Assembly: GCF_900115755.1 (NCBI RefSeq)
Contig: NZ_FOXQ01000005.1
Location: 270,505-334,504, forward strand
DNA from: Parafilimonas terrae
Lineage (GTDB): Bacteria > Bacteroidota > Bacteroidia > Chitinophagales > Chitinophagaceae
DNA: 64,000 bases
Direction: 5' to 3'
Below are positions 9,165 to 64,000 of the stretch, in pieces (within the stretch, counting starts at the first letter, position 1; each line of letters begins with the position of its first letter). The position numbers were made by a program, and so were the translations under genes. The notes below the pieces were generated by a model. It ran no database searches. It saw only the letters and a list, made by a program, of their open reading frames with translations, and had not been told where the DNA came from.

Positions 9165-9239
9165 CAAATAAATTTTTACAGCTACTACCGGTAATCACTC
9201 GCCTGTTTTCTCTTCTTTGTTAATACCTATATTTAATGC

Positions 9240-10064
9240 ATGGAAAAATTAAATATAGATGGAAAGGAATACAATAATATTTGTTTTACCTGCGGCACAC
9301 GCTATAAAGAAACAGCACCCGCAGCCTGCACTGTTTGTGAAGATGAACGTCAGTATATTCCAATGACCGGCCAGCAATGGACAAGCTATGCTGCACTTGC
9401 TGAAAGCAAAACCATCCGTATCAATCAGCGATTTGAAAACTTGTTTGACCTGAAGATAATGCCAGCCTTTGCTATTGGCCAGAAAGCTTATTTAATTACA
9501 TCGCCGCATGGCAATCTTTTATGGGATTGTATTCCATATCTTGATGAAGCAACGGTAACCTTTATTAATTCCAAAGGCGGGCTTAAAGGCATTGCTATTT
9601 CACATCCGCATTATTACAGTTTAATGGCAGCATGGGCTGCAACATTTAATTGCCCGGTTTATATTCATGAGGCAGATAAAGAATGGATAATGGATGATGC
9701 CGCCAACGTAAAAGTATGGAACGGAGAAGAGCAGGATTTATGGAATGGTATGAAGATCATTCATACAGGCGGGCATTTTGCGGGCAGCACAGTTTTGCAC
9801 GCACCTCATTTGGGTGACAAAGGAAGTTTGCTGGTGGGCGATACACTGCAGATTGCACCAAGCCTCAAATTCATCAGCATGATGTATAGCTATCCCAATG
9901 TTATACCCTTGCCATTAAATACAATACTGCATATTTACAACAGGCTGGAAGCCCTGCAATACGATATGATGTACGGCGCTTTTGAATGGCAAACAATTGC
10001 CGCCGGCGCTAAACAGCTTTTTCAAAAATCGGTTAATGTATATCGCAATTTGGATAGCTTATAA
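9240..10064 (+). CDS. MBL-fold hydrolase with N-terminal zinc ribbon
   Basis: 274 residues. The first 35 carry a rubredoxin-like ribbon (CFTCGTRYKE...CTVCEDE, two CxxC pairs). The rest is a metallo-beta-lactamase fold: ISHPHYYS in place of the usual HxHxDH, then HTGGHFAGSTVLH and LVGDTLQI. The HPHYY variant lacks the Asp-His of the classic motif, so metal binding or chemistry is probably changed. Cytoplasmic; substrate unknown. It begins at the ATG at 9240 after a 75-bp gap and shows no partner gene. Confidence 0.85.
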   Translation: MEKLNIDGKEYNNICFTCGTRYKETAPAACTVCEDERQYIPMTGQQWTSYAALAESKTIRINQRFENLFDLKIMPAFAIGQKAYLITSPHGNLLWDCIPYLDEATVTFINSKGGLKGIAISHPHYYSLMAAWAATFNCPVYIHEADKEWIMDDAANVKVWNGEEQDLWNGMKIIHTGGHFAGSTVLHAPHLGDKGSLLVGDTLQIAPSLKFISMMYSYPNVIPLPLNTILHIYNRLEALQYDMMYGAFEWQTIAAGAKQLFQKSVNVYRNLDSL

Positions 10065-11118: not shown

Positions 11119-11437
11119 AAAGCATAAACACAATACTGCATTACCGGCGGTAATTCATAGGCAAACTATTGATGCATAACACTTATAATTCATCCATAAT
11201 ATAATTTACTTAATTACAGAAAAAGACGATATTTTTGGAGTTGTATCACTTTAATCAATTAACAAGGTAGTTATTTCAAGTTTACAATTCTGACAGGGCT
11301 TTATTAATAACCCTGCACATAAAGCAACTCTTTATTCCAACATTTGATAACATGGTTTTATTCTTATTGAATATACCTGGAACTGAAATTAACAGCATGC
11401 ATTAAATAATATTTTGTAACACTTAAAAACTGTTATT
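11119..11437. other. Intergenic region, 319 bp
   Basis: AT-rich, no gene or clear hairpin terminator seen. It probably contains the promoter of the SufE-like gene. Confidence 0.4.
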
Positions 11438-13107: not shown

Positions 13108-15141
13108 TCAAGAATAGTAGCTGATCCAATTCTGAATGCCTGCTTTGTAAGCAATCCTTTCTTCATTATTCAATAAAAATTTTTCCTGGTTTTTAAGAAC
13201 TGATAATGCAGCTTTAAGCATGAATGCTTTATTCTTCGACATGTTTGATGAATGCATCCTGTAAACAGCTATTTTATTTTGATGATGAATAGCTGGCAGC
13301 TTCCTGCTGATACGCAGGTTGAGATCATAATCCTCGCAACTGTGCAATTGCGTATCAAAACAAAAATAAAAAAATAAATCACGGCGATACATCACGGTTG
13401 CCTCCATACCAATGTAATTGCCCTGCAATAATGAAAAATAAATCAAATCTGTTTTTGGTTCAGCAAGCTTAGTATTTAAATAGTTTCCTTTTTCATCAAT
13501 CTTATCAAAGGTACCGGAAACAAAAGCCGCATCTTTATATGTATTAAAAAAATAGAGGTTTAATTCAACTGCCCCGGGATATAAATAATCATCAGCATCA
13601 AGAAAAACAATATAATCGCCTTTTGAAAACTGAACGCCGATATTCCGCGCCGCAGATAACCCAACTCTTTCAACACGCACATAACTAATGTCTTGAAATG
13701 CATCACAAACATTTTTGGTTTTGTCTGTTGATCCGTCATCTACCACCACAATTTCTATATTGTTATATGTTTGGCTGATGGCGCTGTTAATGGCTTCTTC
13801 TAAATAATGTGCCTGGTTATAACAGGGTATGATTATGGAAACAAGCGGTTGCTCTTTAATTGTTATTTCATTTAATAATTTCTGTGGAAAACTTAAGCAG
13901 GTTTCCTGTGTTTCGTTTTTACGTTTATTATAAAATCTTTTACCCGCTTTACATCCTTTTATTTCAGTAAACAGAGAAGAAAATTTACCGGCAATAATAT
14001 TTTTAAATTCCTGTTTAAACCTGCTTCTGTAATAAGCCGGCAATGTTTTTCGAACACGCTTTATATTTCCTTTATGCCTGTATTTTTCATGCTGAACAAG
14101 CAATGCGCACACATGGCCTTTCATATAACTGAATAGCTGTTTACGCAAGTCTTCCAGGGTTTTGCGATGTTCATGAAAAACATATAAATGCGGGTAATAA
14201 ACGCAGTTCCATCCTTCTGCCAAAATGCGGTACCACATTTCTGAATCGCCGCTGCAACCTGCAGCACCCACATCTAATCTTTCGTCAAATAAACCAACAA
14301 GATTGAAAGCCTCTTTTCGAAAAGCCATATTAGCACCTGCACCAACGTCCCACGCAGGAACACCTTCATCAACTGCAGTTAAAAAATATTTATGATCAAA
14401 AATAGTTGGTACATATCCTTTATTAAAACCCCAGTCTTTTTCAAAAATATATTGTGCTTCAGTACTTAATTCAGCCGGAATTACAAGCCCTGTAACAGCC
14501 ATTGTAAGCGGGTTAGAAAAACAGCTTTTTATATTGCTTATCCAGTTAACGGGTATTTGTACATCATCATCGGTATAAGCGATAATATCATGCGAAGCAC
14601 ACTTAGCGCCGGTGTTTCGGGCAATGTCCAATCCTTTTCTTTCTTCACGTATATAACGAACATGCTGAAACTGTTCAACAATATTTTTTGAATCATCATT
14701 ATCCGGTGCATTATCAACAATAACCAGTTCAAAATTGCTATCATCATTTTTTAATAAAGAAGAAATACATTTTTGCAAGGCCTGCGGCCTGTTGCGTGTG
14801 CATACAATAACAGATATTGGTGCACTTTCTTTGCTGAGATTTGTTTTAAAATCATCAATGCTTTTTGATAACAATTCATGCAGCGTAACAAAATCGCCCT
14901 GCTGTAAATATTGTTGCCAGTTATCATTATTATGTAAGTAAACAGCAATCGTTTTTTCAATTGATGATTTAATTGCATCAACTATGTTTTCGAAAAATTC
15001 TTGCTGATGCTCCATCCACACATGGCCTAAAGGAAATTGATTACACCAAATAACGATGTAATTATTGCCTGCATTGAGCTGCAACGTTTCAGCTTTGTCA
15101 AGTTCAATATGCGTTATTGTATAAGGTTGAAATTCTGCCAT
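13108..15141 (-). CDS. Two-domain glycosyltransferase (GT2-GT2)
   Basis: 677 residues with two complete GT-A domains. The first (about 105-340) has SVIVCTRNRP, VDNAPDN and YTDDDVQIP. The second (about 430-660) has SIIIPCYNQAHYLEEA, VDDGSTD and FLDADDYLYPGA. The first 100 residues are a separate N-terminal part without a clear match. Tandem transferases can add two different sugars or alternate linkages during polymer growth. It starts 3 bp after the Wzt stop and precedes another GT2 gene, so all four are likely one transcript. Confidence 0.92.
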   Translation of the reverse strand: MAEFQPYTITHIELDKAETLQLNAGNNYIVIWCNQFPLGHVWMEHQQEFFENIVDAIKSSIEKTIAVYLHNNDNWQQYLQQGDFVTLHELLSKSIDDFKTNLSKESAPISVIVCTRNRPQALQKCISSLLKNDDSNFELVIVDNAPDNDDSKNIVEQFQHVRYIREERKGLDIARNTGAKCASHDIIAYTDDDVQIPVNWISNIKSCFSNPLTMAVTGLVIPAELSTEAQYIFEKDWGFNKGYVPTIFDHKYFLTAVDEGVPAWDVGAGANMAFRKEAFNLVGLFDERLDVGAAGCSGDSEMWYRILAEGWNCVYYPHLYVFHEHRKTLEDLRKQLFSYMKGHVCALLVQHEKYRHKGNIKRVRKTLPAYYRSRFKQEFKNIIAGKFSSLFTEIKGCKAGKRFYNKRKNETQETCLSFPQKLLNEITIKEQPLVSIIIPCYNQAHYLEEAINSAISQTYNNIEIVVVDDGSTDKTKNVCDAFQDISYVRVERVGLSAARNIGVQFSKGDYIVFLDADDYLYPGAVELNLYFFNTYKDAAFVSGTFDKIDEKGNYLNTKLAEPKTDLIYFSLLQGNYIGMEATVMYRRDLFFYFCFDTQLHSCEDYDLNLRISRKLPAIHHQNKIAVYRMHSSNMSKNKAFMLKAALSVLKNQEKFLLNNEERIAYKAGIQNWISYYS

Positions 15142-55853: not shown

Positions 55854-58151
55854 ATGGCAAAGAAATCACTTGCAAAAGAGTCAACTGAAGTTTTGACTGA
55901 GAAAAAGAATACTGCAAAAAAAACAGTTTCTGGAAAAACCAAAAAAAATCCAAACAGCAACCACGACATTTACGCTGCATTACAACATCATTTTGGGTTT
56001 GAACAATTTAAACAGGCACAGGAAGAAGCCATAAACAGCCTCCTCAGCGGCCGCGATACATTCGTAATAATGCCCACAGGCGGCGGCAAAAGTTTATGCT
56101 ATCAATTACCGGCCATGATGCTTGATGGCTGTGCCATAGTGGTAAGCCCGCTTATCGCTTTAATGAAAAACCAGGTGGACCTGGTAAGAGGCTATAACGA
56201 AAACGATACTGTTGCACACTTTCTAAATTCTTCGCTCAATAAAGGGCAGATAAAAGAAGTGAAGGACGACCTTACAACCGGCAAAACAAAATTGCTCTAT
56301 GTGGCGCCCGAAACTTTAACCAAGCAGGAAAACCTTGATTTTTTCCGCGAACTGAAGATCTCCTTTTTCGCTGTTGATGAAGCGCATTGTATTTCAGAAT
56401 GGGGCCACGATTTCAGGCCTGAATACAGGAGGCTGCGGGAAATGATGGACATCATTAATGAAGAAATCCCTGTTGTTGCATTAACAGCAACGGCAACGCC
56501 GAAAGTGCAGAGCGATATTGTAAAAAACCTCGGCCTGCGCAACCCCAACATTTTTATATCGTCTTTTAACCGCCCTAATCTTTATTATGAAATTCAGCCG
56601 AAGGTTAAGAAAGAGCAAACGGTAAAATCTATCGTTCGTTTCATTACAAATATGGCGGGCAAAAGCGGCATTATTTATACGCTTAACCGCAAAACCACCG
56701 AAGAGCTCGCAGAGGTGTTGGTGGCCAATAATATTAAAGCCGTTGCCTATCATGCCGGCCTCGATTCTAAACTAAGGGCCGAAAGGCAGGATATGTTTTT
56801 GAATGAAGATGTGCAGGTAATTGTAGCCACCATTGCTTTTGGGATGGGTATTGATAAACCCGACATAAGGTTTGTTATTCACTTCAACATACCCAAATCA
56901 ATAGAAAACTATTACCAGGAAACAGGCCGCGCCGGCCGCGACGGGCTGGAAGGAAAATGTATTCTTTATTATTCGCATAAAGATGTGAGCAAGCTGGAAC
57001 ATTTAATGCGCGACAAACCATTAAGCGAACGCGAAGTGGGCGCACAGTTAATAAATGAATCTGTTGCTTATGCCGAAAGTTCTGTGTGCAGAAGAAAGAT
57101 ATTGCTGCATTATTTTGGCGAGGAGAGAGAAGAAGAAAACTGCGGCGCCTGCGATAACTGTCTTCACCCTAAAGAAAAAATAGAAACAAAAGATGAGGTG
57201 GTAAAAGCCCTGAAAGTAATTAAGGCGCTTGACGAAAAATTCCCGGCAGAGTATGTGGTGAATATTTTGGTGGGTAAACTAACGCCGCAGGTAATGATGT
57301 TTCGCCATGAAAAATTTCCCGAATTTGGTTTGGGTAAAGAAAAAGACGAACACTTCTGGAACAGCCTGCTGCGCCAGATGCTGCTTGGCAACATTATAAG
57401 AAAAGATATTGAAGAATACGGCCTGCTTAAGTTTACGGAAGCAGGCGTTAAGTTCATGAAAAAGCCAACTTCATTTAAGATTGTGCTGAACAACCTGTTT
57501 GAAGATGCGGATGAAGATGATGAAGAAAGCGAAGGCAGCGGCGGCGGTGCGGCAGCAGACCAGCGGCTGTTTGAAATGCTGAAAGAACTGCGCCATGAAG
57601 AAGGCAAGAAGAAAAAGCTTCCGCCGTTTGTTATTTTCCTCGAAAGCTCGCTGCAGGATATGGCAACCATGTACCCCACCACTTTGGCCGAACTTGAAAA
57701 ATGCCAGGGCGTAAGTAAAGGCAAGGCATTAAAATTCGGGAGGCCGTTTGTGGACCTTATAGCAAGGTATGTGGAAGAAAACGATGTGGAAAAGCCCGAT
57801 GATTTTGTAATGAAATCTGTGGTAAATAAAAACAGCAATAAAATTTATATTATTCAGAACATAGATAAAAAGATACCGCTGGCCACCATTGCCCGCAATA
57901 AAGATTTAAGGCTGGATGGCTTGCTGGAAGAAATGGAAACCATTGTGGCAAGCGGCACCCGGCTTAACCTTGATTATGCCATTGATGATATGAACCTGGA
58001 TGATGATGATAAAGATGAAATAATAGATTATTTTAAAAACTGCCAGGATTCATCATTACAGGTGGCGCAGGAAGAATTATCAGACAGCGGTTATAACTGG
58101 GAGCAATTAAAAATTATGCGAATTAAGTTTTTAAGTGAATTTGGAAACTGA
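55854..58151 (+). CDS. recQ: ATP-dependent DNA helicase RecQ
   Basis: 765 residues. A Lys/Thr-rich N-terminal tail of about 40 precedes the helicase core: motif [41 protein letters not shown]. Zn-binding RQC part: [12 protein letters not shown]...CGACDNC, then a winged helix, an acidic linker ([15 protein letters not shown]) and an HRDC-like domain; the extra C-terminal part is longer than in E. coli (about 610 residues). It unwinds forked DNA in recombination repair. Confidence 0.95.
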
Positions 58152-58313: not shown

Positions 58314-58358
58314 ATGATATCATATTATAAACATAAATTAGTGCATCGGTGTAATTAT

Positions 58359-59021
58359 ATGGAACACAGCTTATTTAAAGTTTTTCTTCTATTCTTGTTT
58401 TCTGCCTGTGCCGGCAATGCTTCAGATGATAAAACAAATCCCTCTTTACCTTCCTTCACAGACAGTTCATTAACAATAACAAAAGACACTTTGAAAATTA
58501 CTTATGATACTATCTTATATCCCTTTTTAGATTCTTCATACAACCTTGCACTTCATGTGTTTAACACAAAGAGTTATAATGAAAAAGAAAGCAATTCGAC
58601 TATAACATTCAACCACACCCGTAATAACAAAACAGAAATGTTATTTCAGGATTCTGTTTATTGCATGAGTGCCCTTATTGAATGGAAAGACTTTAATAAC
58701 GATAATAATAAGGACGTCTTAATTTTTTACTCAACCGGCGCAAGAGCAAATCCAACTTATCATCTTTATTTGGTTGACACAACAGAACATAAACTTACCT
58801 ATGTAAAAAGGTTTGAGGATTTGCCAAATCCTGAATTTGATTCAAACAATAATATTATTTACAGTTCAGCATTACACGGCGTACGGGTTATTACTTCATT
58901 TTATAAGATCAATTCACAAAACCAACTGGTTAATCTTGGGCATTCTATTGACACCGATTTTGGTGACTCGGTGGAGTTTGATAGAGCACTTAAGGAAGTT
59001 TTAAAAGAGCAAAGAAAATAG
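58359..59021 (+). CDS. Hypothetical lipoprotein with FG-GAP-like Ca site
   Basis: 220 residues from the ATG at 58359 (MEHSLFKVFLLFLFSAC), a signal peptide ending in a lipobox Cys near residue 17. The central segment DFNNDNNKD is a DxNxDxxxD calcium-loop-like motif of FG-GAP/VCBS type. Mature part otherwise unknown. An upstream in-frame start (58314) would add a Tyr/His-rich tail and is less likely. Confidence 0.75.
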   Translation: MEHSLFKVFLLFLFSACAGNASDDKTNPSLPSFTDSSLTITKDTLKITYDTILYPFLDSSYNLALHVFNTKSYNEKESNSTITFNHTRNNKTEMLFQDSVYCMSALIEWKDFNNDNNKDVLIFYSTGARANPTYHLYLVDTTEHKLTYVKRFEDLPNPEFDSNNNIIYSSALHGVRVITSFYKINSQNQLVNLGHSIDTDFGDSVEFDRALKEVLKEQRK

Positions 59022-59510: not shown

Positions 59511-60695
59511 GTGGCCGCCCTTACCTACAAGATTGTTTTACACAGAAGTAAAAGCTGCATTCTGGTACAGTTTGAAGTTAACAATGCATGGAACAAAAGA
59601 ATACAAGCTGTGCCGGGTGCAAAATGGAGCAAAACGCTGAGAGGCTGGACGATACCAGACACGCCTGAAAACCGCAGTAAATGCGGTTTTAAATTGAATG
59701 ATGTTGTATTGAAAGAACAGGTTGCCCCTCTGCCTGAAAAACCCGTTTCGCCAAAAGTTACCAAAGAAGCCTTATGCCTTATAAGTGAGGAAAACAAACG
59801 GGAAATGCAAAAATTTTTAGAACAGCTTACTTTAAAAACCTACAGCCCATCAACCATACGAACATACAGAAACGAATTTGCGCAATTATTACAAGCCCTT
59901 CGCCTGCATAATGTGCAGGCTCTGCAGCCTGCGCAACTGCAACGTTATTTGCTGTGGTGTATTAAAAACGGTTTAAAAGAAAACAGTGTACACAGCAGGC
60001 TTAATGCACTAAAATTTTATTTTGAGCAGGTGTTGCACCGGGATAAATTCTTTTTTGAAATACCAAGGCCAAAAAAACCAGCACAGTTGCCCAAAATTTT
60101 AAATGAAACTGAGCTTAAGAGAATGTTTGCTTCTCTCAACAATATTAAGCATAAGGCTATTTTGTTTACTGCTTACAGTGCAGGTTTAAGAGTAAGTGAA
60201 GCTGTGAAACTAAGGATACAGGATATAGACAGCAAACGGATGGAGATTTTTGTACAGCGCGCCAAAGGCAAAAAAGACCGGGTTGTAAATTTAAGTCCGT
60301 TGGTGCTTGACGTATTAAGGCAATATATGCTTTTGCAAAAGCCAAGGCCTGTATATTATCTTTTTACAAATCCGGATGGAAGCAGCCCGTATAGTGAAAG
60401 AAGCGCCCAGAAAATTTTTCAAATGGCACGGAATGCTGCGGGAATACATAAAGATGTAAGCTTTCATAGCCTGCGGCACAGCTTTGCCACACATTTGCTT
60501 GAAAAAGGTATTGATGTGAAGTATATTAAAGAGTTGTTAGGTCATTTTGATATACGCACCACCGAAAGGTATTTACATGTAAGCAAAGAAAAGCTGGTAA
60601 ATATTGTAAGTCCGCTTGACAGTTTGTATGAAGAAGAAAAGCAGTTGTGGATTACCGACACTAACAATACAAAAAAGCGAAAAGAAGGGCATTGA
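59511..60695 (+). CDS. Tyrosine recombinase/integrase with N-terminal extension
   Basis: 394 residues, GTG start at 59511. Catalytic set: Arg227 (SAGLRVSE), Lys near 252-255 (AKGKKDR), His319 and Arg322 (FHSLRHSFATHLL), His345 (LLGHFD) and Tyr354 (TTERYLHV). A SAM-like core-binding domain is at 95-180. The first 65 residues (QAVPGAKWSKTLRGWTIPDT) form an added domain resembling a HARP-type fold. The C-terminal half resembles IntI and XerD, but the IntI-specific insertion between the Lys and His-Arg boxes is absent. It is followed directly, in the same direction, by palindrome-bounded cassettes. Confidence 0.94.
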   Translation: MAALTYKIVLHRSKSCILVQFEVNNAWNKRIQAVPGAKWSKTLRGWTIPDTPENRSKCGFKLNDVVLKEQVAPLPEKPVSPKVTKEALCLISEENKREMQKFLEQLTLKTYSPSTIRTYRNEFAQLLQALRLHNVQALQPAQLQRYLLWCIKNGLKENSVHSRLNALKFYFEQVLHRDKFFFEIPRPKKPAQLPKILNETELKRMFASLNNIKHKAILFTAYSAGLRVSEAVKLRIQDIDSKRMEIFVQRAKGKKDRVVNLSPLVLDVLRQYMLLQKPRPVYYLFTNPDGSSPYSERSAQKIFQMARNAAGIHKDVSFHSLRHSFATHLLEKGIDVKYIKELLGHFDIRTTERYLHVSKEKLVNIVSPLDSLYEEEKQLWITDTNNTKKRKEGH

Positions 60696-60699
60696 TTTT

Positions 60700-60757
60700 C
60701 AACGCAAATTTTTTTTTTGTGAATGCGTACTATTCGGTAATATTGGTGTTAGCGGCA
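60700..60757 (+). other. attI-like junction at the 3' side of the recombinase
   Basis: GTTAGCGGCA at 60748-60757 opens the first cassette. It is the exact reverse complement of TGCCGCTAAC, the first core of the palindrome that ends this cassette (62826-62835). Left of the G|TT position there is no long palindrome, as expected for an integron primary site rather than a cassette-borne site. A T-run at 60710-60719 precedes it. The left boundary is unknown. Confidence 0.6.
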
Positions 60758-60777
60758 ATGGTAGCGGACACTCTCTA

Positions 60778-61338
60778 ATGAAACAATCATTTCTTATTAT
60801 ATTGACCCTTCTAACTCTTAACTGCTTTGGGACAACCACCAAAGTGACGAGAGTTATTGACGGCGACACCTTTGAAACTGAAACAGGAGAAAAGGTTAGA
60901 CTTGTTGGTATTAATGCTCCTGAGATAAGAGACATATTTGGCGAAGAAGCAAAGCAACACCTAATTAGTTTAATCGAAAATAAAACTGTTGATTTGGAAG
61001 CCGACCATATTTCAAGCGACCGAGACAGATACGGCAGACTTTTACGATATGTAATTTTAAACAATACCGATATAAATAAACAAATGGTTCTTGACGGCTA
61101 CGCCTTTGCATATTTAAAATATCATTTTGACAAAGAAGAAGAATATAAACAAGCTGAATTATTTTCAAAACAAGAAAACAAAGGCATATGGAATAACCAA
61201 CAGAGCGAAGCAATTAAAAAAGAACAGGCGAAAAATGATAATAATATTTTCTCTTACTTCACTTTTAAAAATGTTATAGTAACTGCATCGGTGCTTCTAT
61301 TACTAATTGCTGGAATTTATTACTACTATAAAAAATGA
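60778..61338 (+). CDS. Secreted thermonuclease-like (SNase) protein with C-terminal membrane helix
   Basis: 186 residues from the ATG at 60778; earlier in-frame codons run through the recombination site and the recombinase end and are not coding here. A signal peptide (KQSFLIILTLLTLNCFG) precedes an SNase domain: VIDGDTFET, KVRLVGINAPE with the Arg and Asp ligands, a GEEAKQHL Glu, and DRYGRLLRYV with the second catalytic Arg. It ends in a hydrophobic helix (VIVTASVLLLLIAGIYYYYKK), so it is a membrane-anchored nuclease facing the periplasm. It overlaps the next gene by 4 bp (ATGA). Confidence 0.9.
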   Translation: MKQSFLIILTLLTLNCFGTTTKVTRVIDGDTFETETGEKVRLVGINAPEIRDIFGEEAKQHLISLIENKTVDLEADHISSDRDRYGRLLRYVILNNTDINKQMVLDGYAFAYLKYHFDKEEEYKQAELFSKQENKGIWNNQQSEAIKKEQAKNDNNIFSYFTFKNVIVTASVLLLLIAGIYYYYKK

Positions 61339-62429
61339 TAGCTGCTAATAATAAAGCTTTCAACGAAATTTTTTTGACGGAAATCAGCAAATTTGATAGC
61401 CGCAAATACGCTTATGATACTTTCTTTAATTGCGACGAAAAGAGGTTTTCAAAAATTGCAAGACAATACGGAATTCAAAATGGTTCTGGCGCATTAAATT
61501 ATATGCTCAAAACCTTCTACTCATGGAAAAGTAATCATGTTAGACCAAACGGAAGTTCAAGTTATAACATCGTCGCAAGCACTGCAGCGACTTTTACAAT
61601 TGAAGAAAAATTTATTGAGGCATATACACAACTTGCAAAACATATAAAACATAGCTTTCCTAAAAAAATTGAACTTAAGGACGTTAATCAAACATTCTCC
61701 ACAATATTGACAAATATTGAAACTTTTAATCTTGAAAAAACAAGTTATTATTCAAGATACATTTACAAAGGCGACGAATTAGAAAATTATCAAGAGTATG
61801 TAAAACGAATTTTTGAGTTTTACACAAAAATGATATTTGAAAATTTAAACAATGACATTCCGTTATTTAAAAAAACCTATACTGATGTAAATACTGCATT
61901 TCTTGAAATAAAATTCAATACCTATTTGTATAATATTGAAATAAACATACAAGGAATAGCAAAAAAAATATTTGCAATAAAGAAAGTATTCGACTTGCCA
62001 CATCCAATTTCTTATGAAGAATTAATTAATGACAACCTCTCAGATTTTTCACTTGAACAAATTACAGAAATTGCAAAAGCTAATAACACAACTAAAATAG
62101 ATGCTTTCTTAACTGAATTCGAGATTGGAAAAATTGTCGATAAAAAGAAAGAAATTGAAAATTCAAAAAGGAGCGGCAACATTCAATATACTCTCAAAAG
62201 TAATAGTGGGATTTTAACTATCAATTTGCGGATTTTATCACCAACAGAAAAACTATTGATTGCTTTAAGAATATTATTATTTATTGCCGCGGCTGCATCG
62301 CTTATTTATTACTGCTTCTTTTTTACACAATCATATTTTATCTTTATTGTTGGTCTATTTGTTTCTTCGTTTCTAATATCGCCTATTTATGACAATATTG
62401 TAAAACTTTTTAAGGATACTTTTAAATAA
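61335..62429 (+). CDS. Hypothetical protein with two C-terminal membrane helices
   Basis: 364 residues; mostly hydrophilic and helical, with a C-terminal membrane hairpin (LLIALRILLFIAAAASLIYYC, FIFIVGLFVSSFLISPIY). No recognised domain. Its start overlaps the SNase stop and its stop is 6 bp before the next gene, so three genes form one operon in cassette 1. AT-rich, with frequent GAC/AAA codons unlike the core genes. Confidence 0.75.
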   Translation: MIAANNKAFNEIFLTEISKFDSRKYAYDTFFNCDEKRFSKIARQYGIQNGSGALNYMLKTFYSWKSNHVRPNGSSSYNIVASTAATFTIEEKFIEAYTQLAKHIKHSFPKKIELKDVNQTFSTILTNIETFNLEKTSYYSRYIYKGDELENYQEYVKRIFEFYTKMIFENLNNDIPLFKKTYTDVNTAFLEIKFNTYLYNIEINIQGIAKKIFAIKKVFDLPHPISYEELINDNLSDFSLEQITEIAKANNTTKIDAFLTEFEIGKIVDKKKEIENSKRSGNIQYTLKSNSGILTINLRILSPTEKLLIALRILLFIAAAASLIYYCFFFTQSYFIFIVGLFVSSFLISPIYDNIVKLFKDTFK

Positions 62430-62435
62430 TAAACA

Positions 62436-62801
62436 ATGGAAGAAAATAACAAACTCCAAAAATTTGACCTCGATGCTCTTCCTGCTTTTTTTAAAGATTT
62501 GACGGAGGAACAACAAAAGGCATATTTAGAAAAACTCGCTAATGATAATGCCGATTTAAAAAAGTATGCGAATGAAAAAATAATTGATAGTAAAGTCGCT
62601 GAAAGAGATATGGTTACTGACATAGAATTTCTGAAACAGGTTGAGACAGAAGGAAAGGTAATTAAAGTGAAACGAAAGTATAGAACTGGTTCAGGAGAAA
62701 TGGATATAAACATCAGTGGTGGCGACAAAAAATTTATTATTCCAATATTAGTTGTCATTGGTATAATAATTATTGCAATGCTTTTCATCTTATTTCGATA
62801 A
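62436..62801 (+). CDS. Small hypothetical protein with a C-terminal membrane helix
   Basis: 121 residues. The first 90 are charged and helical (LPAFFKDLTEEQQKAYLEKL), then a Gly-rich segment (ISGGDKKF) and one C-terminal membrane helix (FIIPILVVIGIIIIAMLFILF). Not a known family. It is the last gene of cassette 1; the terminal palindrome begins 24 bp after its stop. Confidence 0.75.
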   Translation: MEENNKLQKFDLDALPAFFKDLTEEQQKAYLEKLANDNADLKKYANEKIIDSKVAERDMVTDIEFLKQVETEGKVIKVKRKYRTGSGEMDINISGGDKKFIIPILVVIGIIIIAMLFILFR

Positions 62802-62825
62802 TGGACATCGAAGGACAAAACCACA

Positions 62826-63031
62826 TGCCGCTAACAAGGGTATTGCCAAAATGCAGGCTGACGTAACGTGTCTTTCGACTTTTTGTTTTTTAATTTAGCA
62901 GTAGTTCCAGCTCGACATTATAAATTTAGCTAAGTGCAAACCATCAACTTTAAAATATAAATTTGGCTTCAGTCGCCGGGCTTGACGGAATTCTATTTCC
63001 TGCACTTCGGCAATACTTTTCCGTTATGGGC
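62826..63031 (+). repeat. attC-like recombination site between cassettes 1 and 2 (206 bp)
   Basis: Outer cores are TGCCGCTAAC (62826-62835) and GTTATGGGC (63023-63031). Inner arms: GTATTGCCAAAATGCAGG (62840-62857) pairs with 62999-63016 at 16 of 18 positions. The loop between arms is about 140 bp and T-rich (CGACTTTTTGTTTTTTAATTT). The layout R''-L''-loop-L'-R' and the length fit long Vibrio-type attC sites. No protein gene lies inside; a longer frame of the next gene runs through the right arm and is not real. Confidence 0.8.
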
Positions 63032-63907
63032 AAGCGTAGAGCGACACGAACCGAACAAAACAGACATTAAGGAAATGGGATTTTTGACAAAATTATTTAG
63101 AGACAAGAAAACGAAAAGTGAACCGACACAACCAATGACGACTGAATATTTTATTGACATTGACCCAATATCAAATTCTTTTTCTATAGCATTCAAAGAC
63201 TTTTATCAAAATCATTTCGTTGACGCATTTGAACTTTCTAGGGGCGATGTAGACACTTACTTTTATGACGCAATGACAACTGAAGAAAAAGAAATTGCGA
63301 AAAGACTAATCCGACAAAATTTAAAATTAAGACAAGCTCACCTTTTTAAAGCAGCAGGAATTTTAAAAGATGCTGAAGCTTTACCAATCTTATATGAACA
63401 GTTAAACAGCAATTCAGACCTAAGTTGGCGGTTGACAATTGGACAAGCAATTTGGCGACTAAACCGTGATGAAATCTATGGTGACCTTTTAAAACAATTA
63501 AAAAAATATCCGTCTGACACAATGAGAGAAGCGCATTTCGACCAAGTAACGGACTTGAAAAATGAAGAAAGTATTGAAATGCTGTTTGATTATTTAAATG
63601 ACAAAAGTGGACTTGTAAGAACAATGACAATTTCTAAGTTAAATTATATTTTAGCAGGACAATATGAAGAAAAACCAAAGTTTGACAAAGACTATTTTTT
63701 GGACAAACAAAACGACAAAGAATTGAAGAGAGAATTACTTGACAAACTAAAAAACATTGACGATTGACAAGAACGCCAGCCCATAACACGGGTTTTGCGT
63801 CAGGCGGGTTGACGTGCAAAATTCAACGGCAGTTTTTCAATTGAACTTTAGTAATAATATCGGCTTTTGTGCTTCGATTACCCGTCCGAACGCAAAGCCC
63901 GGAAACG
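63024..63907 (+). mobile_element. Putative gene cassette 2 (one gene, 884 bp)
   Basis: Starts TTATGGGC after the G|TT at 63023/63024. Its terminal palindrome begins with GCCCATAAC (63779-63787), the exact reverse complement of its own start GTTATGGGC. The core that follows it (GTTACATGC) is unrelated and belongs to the next cassette. One gene in the same direction, with short non-coding ends, as in typical integron cassettes. Confidence 0.75.
63075..63767 (+). CDS. HEAT-repeat-like protein
   Basis: 230 residues from the ATG at 63075 (MGFLTKLFRDKK); an upstream start at 62982 would encode the attC-like site. Helical repeats with HEAT-like period: LRQAHLFKAAGILKDAEALPIL, WRLTIGQAIWRLNRDEIYGDLL and LVRTMTISKLNYIL. 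HEAT repeats act in protein binding. It is the only gene of cassette 2; role unknown. Confidence 0.78.
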   Translation: MGFLTKLFRDKKTKSEPTQPMTTEYFIDIDPISNSFSIAFKDFYQNHFVDAFELSRGDVDTYFYDAMTTEEKEIAKRLIRQNLKLRQAHLFKAAGILKDAEALPILYEQLNSNSDLSWRLTIGQAIWRLNRDEIYGDLLKQLKKYPSDTMREAHFDQVTDLKNEESIEMLFDYLNDKSGLVRTMTISKLNYILAGQYEEKPKFDKDYFLDKQNDKELKRELLDKLKNIDD

Positions 63908-63915
63908 TTACATGC
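63779..63915 (+). repeat. attC-like recombination site at the end of cassette 2 (137 bp)
   Basis: Outer cores GCCCATAAC (63779-63787) and GTTACATGC (63907-63915). Inner arms GGGTTTTGCGTCAGGCGGG (63790-63808) and CCCGTCCGAACGCAAAGCCC (63881-63900) pair with few mismatches. The right arm has a few extra bases (GGAAAC) next to the core. The loop is about 72 bp with T-rich parts. Same order as the site at 62826-63031 but with different arms, so the structure and not the sequence is conserved. Confidence 0.82.
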
Positions 63916-64000
63916 AAGCGGCCTGACAGTACGCTGTTCGACAGCTTGTAGTTTTATTCGACTTTTGTTTTTCAATTTTTTTGTTTTATTGCTTGGCTTC
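63908..64000 (+). mobile_element. Start of a third putative cassette (cut by window end)
   Basis: Begins TTACATGCAAGCGGCC after the core at 63907. The next 80 bp are non-coding with a TCGACTTTTGTTTTTCAATTT stretch resembling the loop of the 62826-63031 site. It may lead into another recombination site or gene. Prediction: its terminal core should read GCATGTAAC. Confidence 0.45.

Follow-up and report, generated by a model that had tools for sequence, protein, structure and literature searches.

Can an integron be organized around a recombinase other than IntI? This question is raised by the right-hand end of a 64,000-nucleotide stretch of the Parafilimonas terrae genome (contig NZ_FOXQ01000005.1, positions 270,505 to 334,504; hereafter the window), where a tyrosine recombinase gene is followed by two complete units, each bounded by a long imperfect palindrome. 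An earlier note, made from the sequence alone, had described this layout and proposed that the units are mobile cassettes moved by the adjoining recombinase; the gene and both units can be read directly at the positions given in Table 1. We conclude, with a probability of roughly 0.8, that the locus is an integron-like cassette array and that its cassettes are likely cut and joined, at predicted hairpin sites, by the neighboring tyrosine recombinase, which is not an IntI. Judged by its sequence anatomy, it resembles an integron but stands outside the IntI-defined family, and is of a variant that appears to extend far beyond the window.

Each unit start mirrors its own end

In the window, the opening bases of each unit are the reverse complement of the core at that unit's own end, and the units are co-directional with the recombinase gene. 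Unit 1 starts with GTTAGCGGCA at 60748 and its own end core is TGCCGCTAAC (62826-62835), the two matching over 10 bases; unit 2 starts with GTTATGGGC at 63023 and has the end core GCCCATAAC (63779-63787), with a match of 9 bases; unit 3 starts with GTTACATGCAAG at 63907. The palindrome arms span 193 bp in the site of unit 1 (AAC at 62833 to GTT at 63025) and 125 bp in that of unit 2 (AAC at 63785 to GTT at 63909). Unit 3 is incomplete because the last base of the window is the end of the contig (C18), and the array is therefore not directly traceable further. None of 300 dinucleotide shuffles of positions 60701-64000 contained two such sites with a 9/9 match to their own start upstream, and the mean number of sites reaching the window arm score was 0.04 per shuffle. 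The site detector found four sites in positions 1-59000 of the window, no two of them spaced closely enough to make up a unit to which the own-start/own-end rule would apply.

We have then looked at longer arrays elsewhere. The nearest named contigs to the window recombinase are Chitinophagaceae metagenome-assembled genomes, and 58 of 147 genomes of the family (our own count from the table) hold a relative at E 1e-45 or better. The sample consisted of 40 stretches around recombinase relatives plus parts of five contigs of the same genome. At an arm score of 11.3, 129 sites forming 92 adjacent pairs were recognized in these 40 stretches together with the window, and all six bases past the GTT agreed between start and own end in 61 pairs (permuted mean 2.5, maximum 9 in 2000 shuffles). 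When a length filter was applied and the set was enlarged to 44 Chitinophagaceae stretches by L047, L048 and C31 (the last from the genome of the window), there were 131 sites and 95 adjacent pairs, of which 65 were perfect, 5 had one mismatch and 25 were worse (permuted mean of perfect pairs 2.8, maximum 9 in 2000 shuffles). Other Bacteroidia families were represented by 20 stretches, taken from 57 genomes (out of 247) that hold a relative of the recombinase of rAID (recombinase-associated acquired interbacterial defense) clusters. Here 18 of 29 pairs (41 sites) were perfect, against a permuted mean of 0.75 and a maximum of 4; under looser settings, 7 of the 20 stretches had at least one perfect pair. 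Hence, the rule was kept when arrays were followed beyond two units, and the same array layout appears to be widespread across the class Bacteroidia, from Chitinophagaceae to gut Bacteroidales.

Unit starts read GTTRNNNGYNAY and unit ends its mirror, a consensus taken from 83 filtered sites of the 129 with a filter that itself demands part of the core. The fourth core base was R in 83/83 starts and Y in 82/83 ends, with positions 5-7 mixed. The core consensus of integrons is RYYYAAC/GTTRRRY, to which only the fourth base conforms throughout. The sites otherwise agree with those of an integron, being imperfect attC-like palindromes that have AAC...GTT ends and show own-start/own-end complementarity.

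The recombinase lies outside the IntI clade

The window protein has an extra N-terminal domain (about residues 1-66), a SAM-like domain (99-178) and a catalytic domain (196-360). Residues R227, K252/K254, H319, R322, H345 and Y354, which we take to be catalytic, are invariant in a 27-row alignment of relatives. The region of the IntI insertion comprises 58 residues in IntI4 (186-243) versus 18 in the window protein (278-295), in line with the earlier note, which had described a recombinase without this insertion. The protein scored 178.9 bits with the integron integrase profile TIGR02249 (cut-off 265), and 182.9 and 176.9 bits with the XerC and XerD equivalogs (cut-offs 335 and 330). The nearest solved folds to its structure model (mean predicted local distance difference test score 82, predicted template modeling score 0.58) were XerA, IntI4, archaeal Xer and XerH.

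Two trees were built, a quick one of 81 rows and a careful one of 46 rows. In the quick tree, the 18 IntI rows of the phylum formed one clade with support 100 and the window protein outside, and 36 of the 40 rows labeled Chitinophagaceae formed another (96), with L103-L106 elsewhere. In the careful tree, eight IntI rows again formed one clade (100) without the window family. The array-bearing Bacteroidia recombinases, those of rAID clusters and four unassigned recombinases made up a 28-row clade (96/90), which became a 32-row clade when L057-L060 were added (91/61), and IntI grouped weakly with IS91-associated enzymes (88/76). Approximately unbiased (AU) tests, chosen after the careful tree was known, gave p 0.157 for the array clade with IntI but without the IS91-associated enzymes, p 0.062 for the window family with IntI, and p 0.025 for rAID outside the other array-bearing recombinases. 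Taken together, trees and AU tests indicate that the recombinase is not IntI, that rAID falls inside the clade and that a shared origin with IntI is possible; common ancestry of the window clade with IntI would be compatible with these data at p 0.157.

The phylogeny proposed earlier thus places the window recombinase outside IntI and also apart from Xer. Two other genes of the genome (L001 and L002) group with E. coli XerC/XerD and the window gene does not, so that the Xer scores and this grouping rule out a plain XerC/XerD, an identity that had been put forward as fatal to the proposal. An IS91-associated recombinase was likewise rejected, there being no transposase match among the four downstream window ORFs (open reading frames). 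IS91-associated recombinases (L151, L153) are catalytic relatives of the window protein (32-38% identity) that, unlike it, are followed by an IS91 transposase gene. Elsewhere in the genome, C41:1-1520 (L112) holds an incomplete tyrosine recombinase frame and then an IS91-type transposase-like ORF, named by eye. Relatives L049, L051, L055 and L061 lie on contigs labeled Methanophagales, Cloacimonadota and Uhrbacteria, where two sites were detected in L061 and none in L049, L051 and L055.

These results bear on the possibility that the window belongs to the canonical integron lineage, with a divergent IntI that lost its extra domain and arrays that are ordinary integrons. The shared architecture, the presence of IntI4 among the nearest folds and the AU result for the array recombinases with IntI are compatible with it. 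We regard it as unlikely, since IntI forms a fully supported clade of its own with the window family outside, a joint clade of the two reaches only p 0.062, and the TIGR02249 score falls well below the cut-off.

The integron-like array proposed here shares with IntI integrons a recombinase, an adjoining insertion point, mostly one-gene units, palindromic AAC...GTT sites, the own-start/own-end rule and, at the level of the sample, a predicted bottom-strand bias. It differs in its recombinase, which is without the IntI insertion, falls outside the IntI clade and points at the array, in having the core GTTRNNNGYNAY instead of GTTRRRY, and in a strand bias that comes with A.C/G.T wobbles in the arms. 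According to the available part of PMC3607928, the integrase of Treponema integrons is transcribed towards attI, in the cassette direction. The window shares this direction with them, whereas their integrase is an IntI.

A presumed insertion point beside the recombinase gene

The first detected unit start could be located in 26 of 41 stretches, 21 of which were accepted as true first units. The motif GCGTATATTT stands directly ahead of these first units, and a leave-one-out weight matrix placed the true GTT ahead of every other GTT of its stretch in 18 of the 21 loci. As with the attI site beside an integron integrase, a conserved motif thus precedes the first unit. The array follows downstream of its recombinase gene and on the same strand, and this is also the case in 21 relatives with a recognized attI-like start, so that the common direction noted earlier for the window holds in all of them.

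Integron surveys look for IntI. Of 296 genomes of the phylum, 84 had an IntI scoring above the cut-off, including 1 of the 73 from the class Bacteroidia (our own count of rows) but not the genome of the window. The available text on IntegronFinder 2.0 gives one complete integron within Bacteroidetes proper, in Salinibacter (PMC9024848). A DNA search with one window site found its subtype in 29 of 147 genomes of the family, namely in 21 of 58 with the recombinase versus 8 of 89 without it (Fisher 9e-5; the genome handles of both lists agree as far as listed). Site-only arrays would match the CALINs (clusters of attC sites lacking integron-integrases) of integron surveys.

If another enzyme moved the arrays, the window recombinase would be a passenger. 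The genome does contain further tyrosine recombinase genes (9 matches), and the eight genomes with the site subtype have no close relative of the window recombinase. This explanation appears quite improbable to us, considering that the attI-like motif and the array adjoin this very recombinase in 21 loci, that sites accompany the recombinase across the family, and that no IntI above the cut-off is available in the genome.

Folding of the sites and strand bias

Mismatches within the top-strand arms were more often A.C than G.T, both in Chitinophagaceae (244 vs. 118) and elsewhere (76 vs. 49), and an A.C excess on the top strand corresponds to G.T wobbles on the bottom strand. Measured by predicted folding, the bottom strand was the better one in 73 and the top strand in 25 of 99 distinct sites (sign test 1.3e-6), and in 23 and 4 of 28 sites elsewhere (sign test 3e-4), the sites being in both cases not independent. 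Window site 1 folded at -22.4 kcal/mol on the bottom strand and at -17.4 kcal/mol on the top strand. Joining each own start to its own end, as in a circle, gave an added outer stem on both strands: for sites 1 and 2, the joined form reached -33.0 and -28.3 kcal/mol on the bottom strand and -29.0 and -29.0 on the top strand, compared with -25.3 and -21.2 (bottom) and -21.5 and -22.3 (top) in the array form.

In the mechanism that we propose, the recombinase would excise a unit as a circle in which its own end meets its own start. By base pairing, these two would form the outer stem of the folded site, a stem of 9-10 bp in the window. The excised unit would then be inserted at the attI-like point beside the recombinase's own gene. 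The strand bias suggests that recombination would act on the bottom strand in its folded form, as it does between IntI and attC.

Units differ as wholes between copies and relatives

In the array of genome G068, a 471-bp unit occurs four times, each copy extending exactly from its GTT to the next GTT and having different neighbors; two copies are identical and the other two are 95-99% alike. The recombinase genes of G128 and G024 are 76% identical over 1136 columns and their likeness stops at the attI GTTA, and in the 13.9 and 5.8 kb fetched for them nothing past that point aligned at E 1e-5. In the genome of the window, contig C31 carries a near-copy of unit 3 with a different neighbor on its left, 92/95 columns being alike to the right of the GTT and 57/97 to the left. 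In addition, 6 of 24 stretches cut by a contig end stop at most 4 bases from a core (L076, L077, L078, L080, L104 and L110; noticed post hoc), against 0.5 expected, and L077 (with a weak motif), L080 and L104 stop at an attI-like GTT or one base beyond. Assemblies would be expected to break on cassette cores or on the attI GTT if the sampled population is heterogeneous for the following unit. Copies and relatives therefore differ by whole units, with breaks at cores, as foreseen for mobile cassettes. Together with the own-start/own-end rule, these core breakpoints support the proposal that the units are mobile and would be moved by the adjoining recombinase, whose activity we infer.

Further pieces of the array were seen in the same genome at C42:323-510 and C31:1-4131 (L113 and L114). 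C31 is array throughout, with three sites, and the contig stops within cassette sequence that is repeated. One site of the window site-2 subtype stands alone at C36:56091-56221 (locus L173 near 6086), with neither a start matching its own end nor an end matching the next start within the 14 kb examined.

Several observations weigh against the reading of a mobile array. The evidence of movement is comparative, with no recombination event, circle or strain pair among it. The bottom-strand hairpin that site 1 displays does not extend to site 2, which favors the top strand (-22.3 vs. -19.0 kcal/mol) and, with its flanks, is ordinary when compared to shuffles (z -1.1 and -1.3). The attI motif of the window is divergent (rank 3 of 104 GTTs), and the site subtype is also found in the eight genomes without the recombinase at the threshold used. 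The 25 poorer pairs of the 95 agree in at most 4 bases, missed or false sites accounting for some of them. No site was detected downstream of the recombinase in 13 of 40 Chitinophagaceae stretches, most of which end at a contig end; L091 and L105 have about 17 kb without a site, and L099 and L106 one distant site each. Finally, sites and sequences are related and the permutation and sign tests therefore overstate independence.

The divergent attI motif and the window site that folds no better on the bottom strand could fit a fossil array, with sites used once and units now immobile. We consider this very improbable, given the open recombinase frame with catalytic-type residues, the near-copy of unit 3 elsewhere in the genome and the identical unit copies in G068. 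Hardly credible is a set of ordinary genes between repeats resembling terminators or miniature inverted-repeat transposable elements, with start/end likeness due to chance or homologous recombination: the sites are indeed imperfect palindromes at gene ends and their subtypes recur between genomes, but such repeats would neither make a far unit start mirror its own end with a core differing per unit nor set breakpoints at GTT, and the pair-matching permutation test speaks against them.

Cassette contents and features of the locus

Of 70 unit calls (two of which, on C31, overlap), 69 have their longest ORF on the strand of the array, and the calls had a median length of 884 bp and a mean GC content of 0.36. 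A Pfam scan of 67 unit ORFs gave 39 families, each of the 25 listed having one or two members, and many of the 67 ORFs were matchless. The families include methyltransferase, AbiV-like, nuclease, adenylyltransferase and regulators, and the further families contributed by PADLOC are mainly of restriction-modification systems. Neither SUKH nor Imm families were among the 25 of 39 listed. Sedentary integrons are known for such mixed cassette content. Among the 67 cassette ORFs, one from a relative matches the streptomycin adenylyltransferase family (PF04439, 3.9e-74). The features of the window locus are collected in Table 1. Upstream of the recombinase gene lie a RecQ-like helicase ORF (55854-58151, named by eye) and an XAC2610-related protein (58314-59021).

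Table 1. Features of the recombinase gene and cassette array in the window
Feature	Positions	Strand	Evidence
Tyrosine recombinase, 394 amino acids, GTG start	59511..60695	+	Catalytic-type residues in 27 aligned relatives
Presumed attI-like insertion point, divergent here; its last bases are the GTT of unit 1	60724..60750	+	Weight matrix
Unit (cassette) 1, own GTT to base ahead of next GTT	60748..63022	+	
Unit 1 ORF, SNase (staphylococcal nuclease homologue) domain	60778..61338	+	PF00565, E 1.2e-20 (computed on a longer frame from 60616)
Unit 1 ORF, 364 amino acids, without family match	61335..62429	+	
Unit 1 ORF, 121 amino acids	62436..62801	+	Weak sub-threshold DUF4944 match
attC-like site closing unit 1: end core TGCCGCTAAC, arms, unit 2 start GTTATGGGC	62826..63031	+	
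Unit (cassette) 2	63023..63906	+	
Unit 2 ORF, 230 amino acids	63075..63767	+	Weak sub-threshold HEAT repeats match
attC-like site closing unit 2: end core GCCCATAAC, arms, unit 3 start GTTACATGC	63779..63918	+	
Unit 3 start, incomplete at contig end	63907..64000	+	

rAID recombinases belong to the same clade

The founding paper on rAID clusters reportedly dates from 2019. In the available part of a preprint, these clusters are defined by a tyrosine recombinase and, behind it, short genes of one orientation whose intergenic regions have conserved motifs, their origin being "an area of active research" (PMC12247911). The window also has co-oriented short low-GC genes behind its recombinase, with ORFs of 121-364 amino acids. 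On a P. distasonis plasmid and a B. ovatus plasmid, the recombinase is followed by Tdi1, SMI1/KNR4 and other immunity-type genes, which fits the published rAID definition as far as that source is available (PMC12247911). The recombinases of both plasmids and of G573 fall in the 28-row clade of the window (96/90). Of the 18 units in these three arrays, 12 have a start and end that share five or all six of the six bases compared, against a permuted mean of 1.2 and a maximum of 6 (5000 permutations). When the three loci were compared, their flanks aligned at 70-85%, and inside the arrays most aligned pieces were site-sized (45-62 bp), with few gene pieces of 92-267 bp. By this comparison, a rAID locus is a fixed platform whose contents appear to be exchanged.

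In addition to their recombinase clade, rAID clusters and the window have in common that the own-start/own-end rule is obeyed. They differ in their sites, which are short (about 45-60 bp) with TAA/TTA cores in rAID and 120-195 bp long with AAC/GTT cores in window-type arrays, and in their cassettes, which carry immunity genes in rAID and, among the ORFs with a listed family, mixed genes in window-type arrays. We infer that rAID clusters would be integrons of the window's kind, the same-clade recombinases beside the arrays of gut Bacteroidales building them likewise. The same kind of array was also seen on a Chryseobacterium plasmid (L150), with three copies of a 140-bp palindromic element (9169-9308, 11264-11403 and 13645-13784) whose cores match at both ends.

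A literature search, with most subscription papers outside its coverage, returned no account of these arrays or of rAID as integrons and no paper joining "acquired interbacterial" with "integron." In their available parts, PMC12247911 does not describe rAID as an integron, and PMC2426708, PMC8138268, PMC9668308 and PMC4755523 describe nothing of this kind.

Meaning for the Bacteroidia

With somewhat less assurance than for the window array itself, we think it probable that the Bacteroidia have an integron lineage of their own that lies outside IntI and uses distinct attI and hairpin attC-like sites, and that rAID is one branch of it, in which immunity genes were captured singly as cassettes. 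If so, the cassette pool of a large bacterial class would have been overlooked, and a second line of recombinases would act on folded sites that differ in their strand signal. How the rAID clusters arise, which protect gut bacteria from type VI secretion and would be one branch of this Bacteroidia lineage, would become a question for a simple recombination assay.

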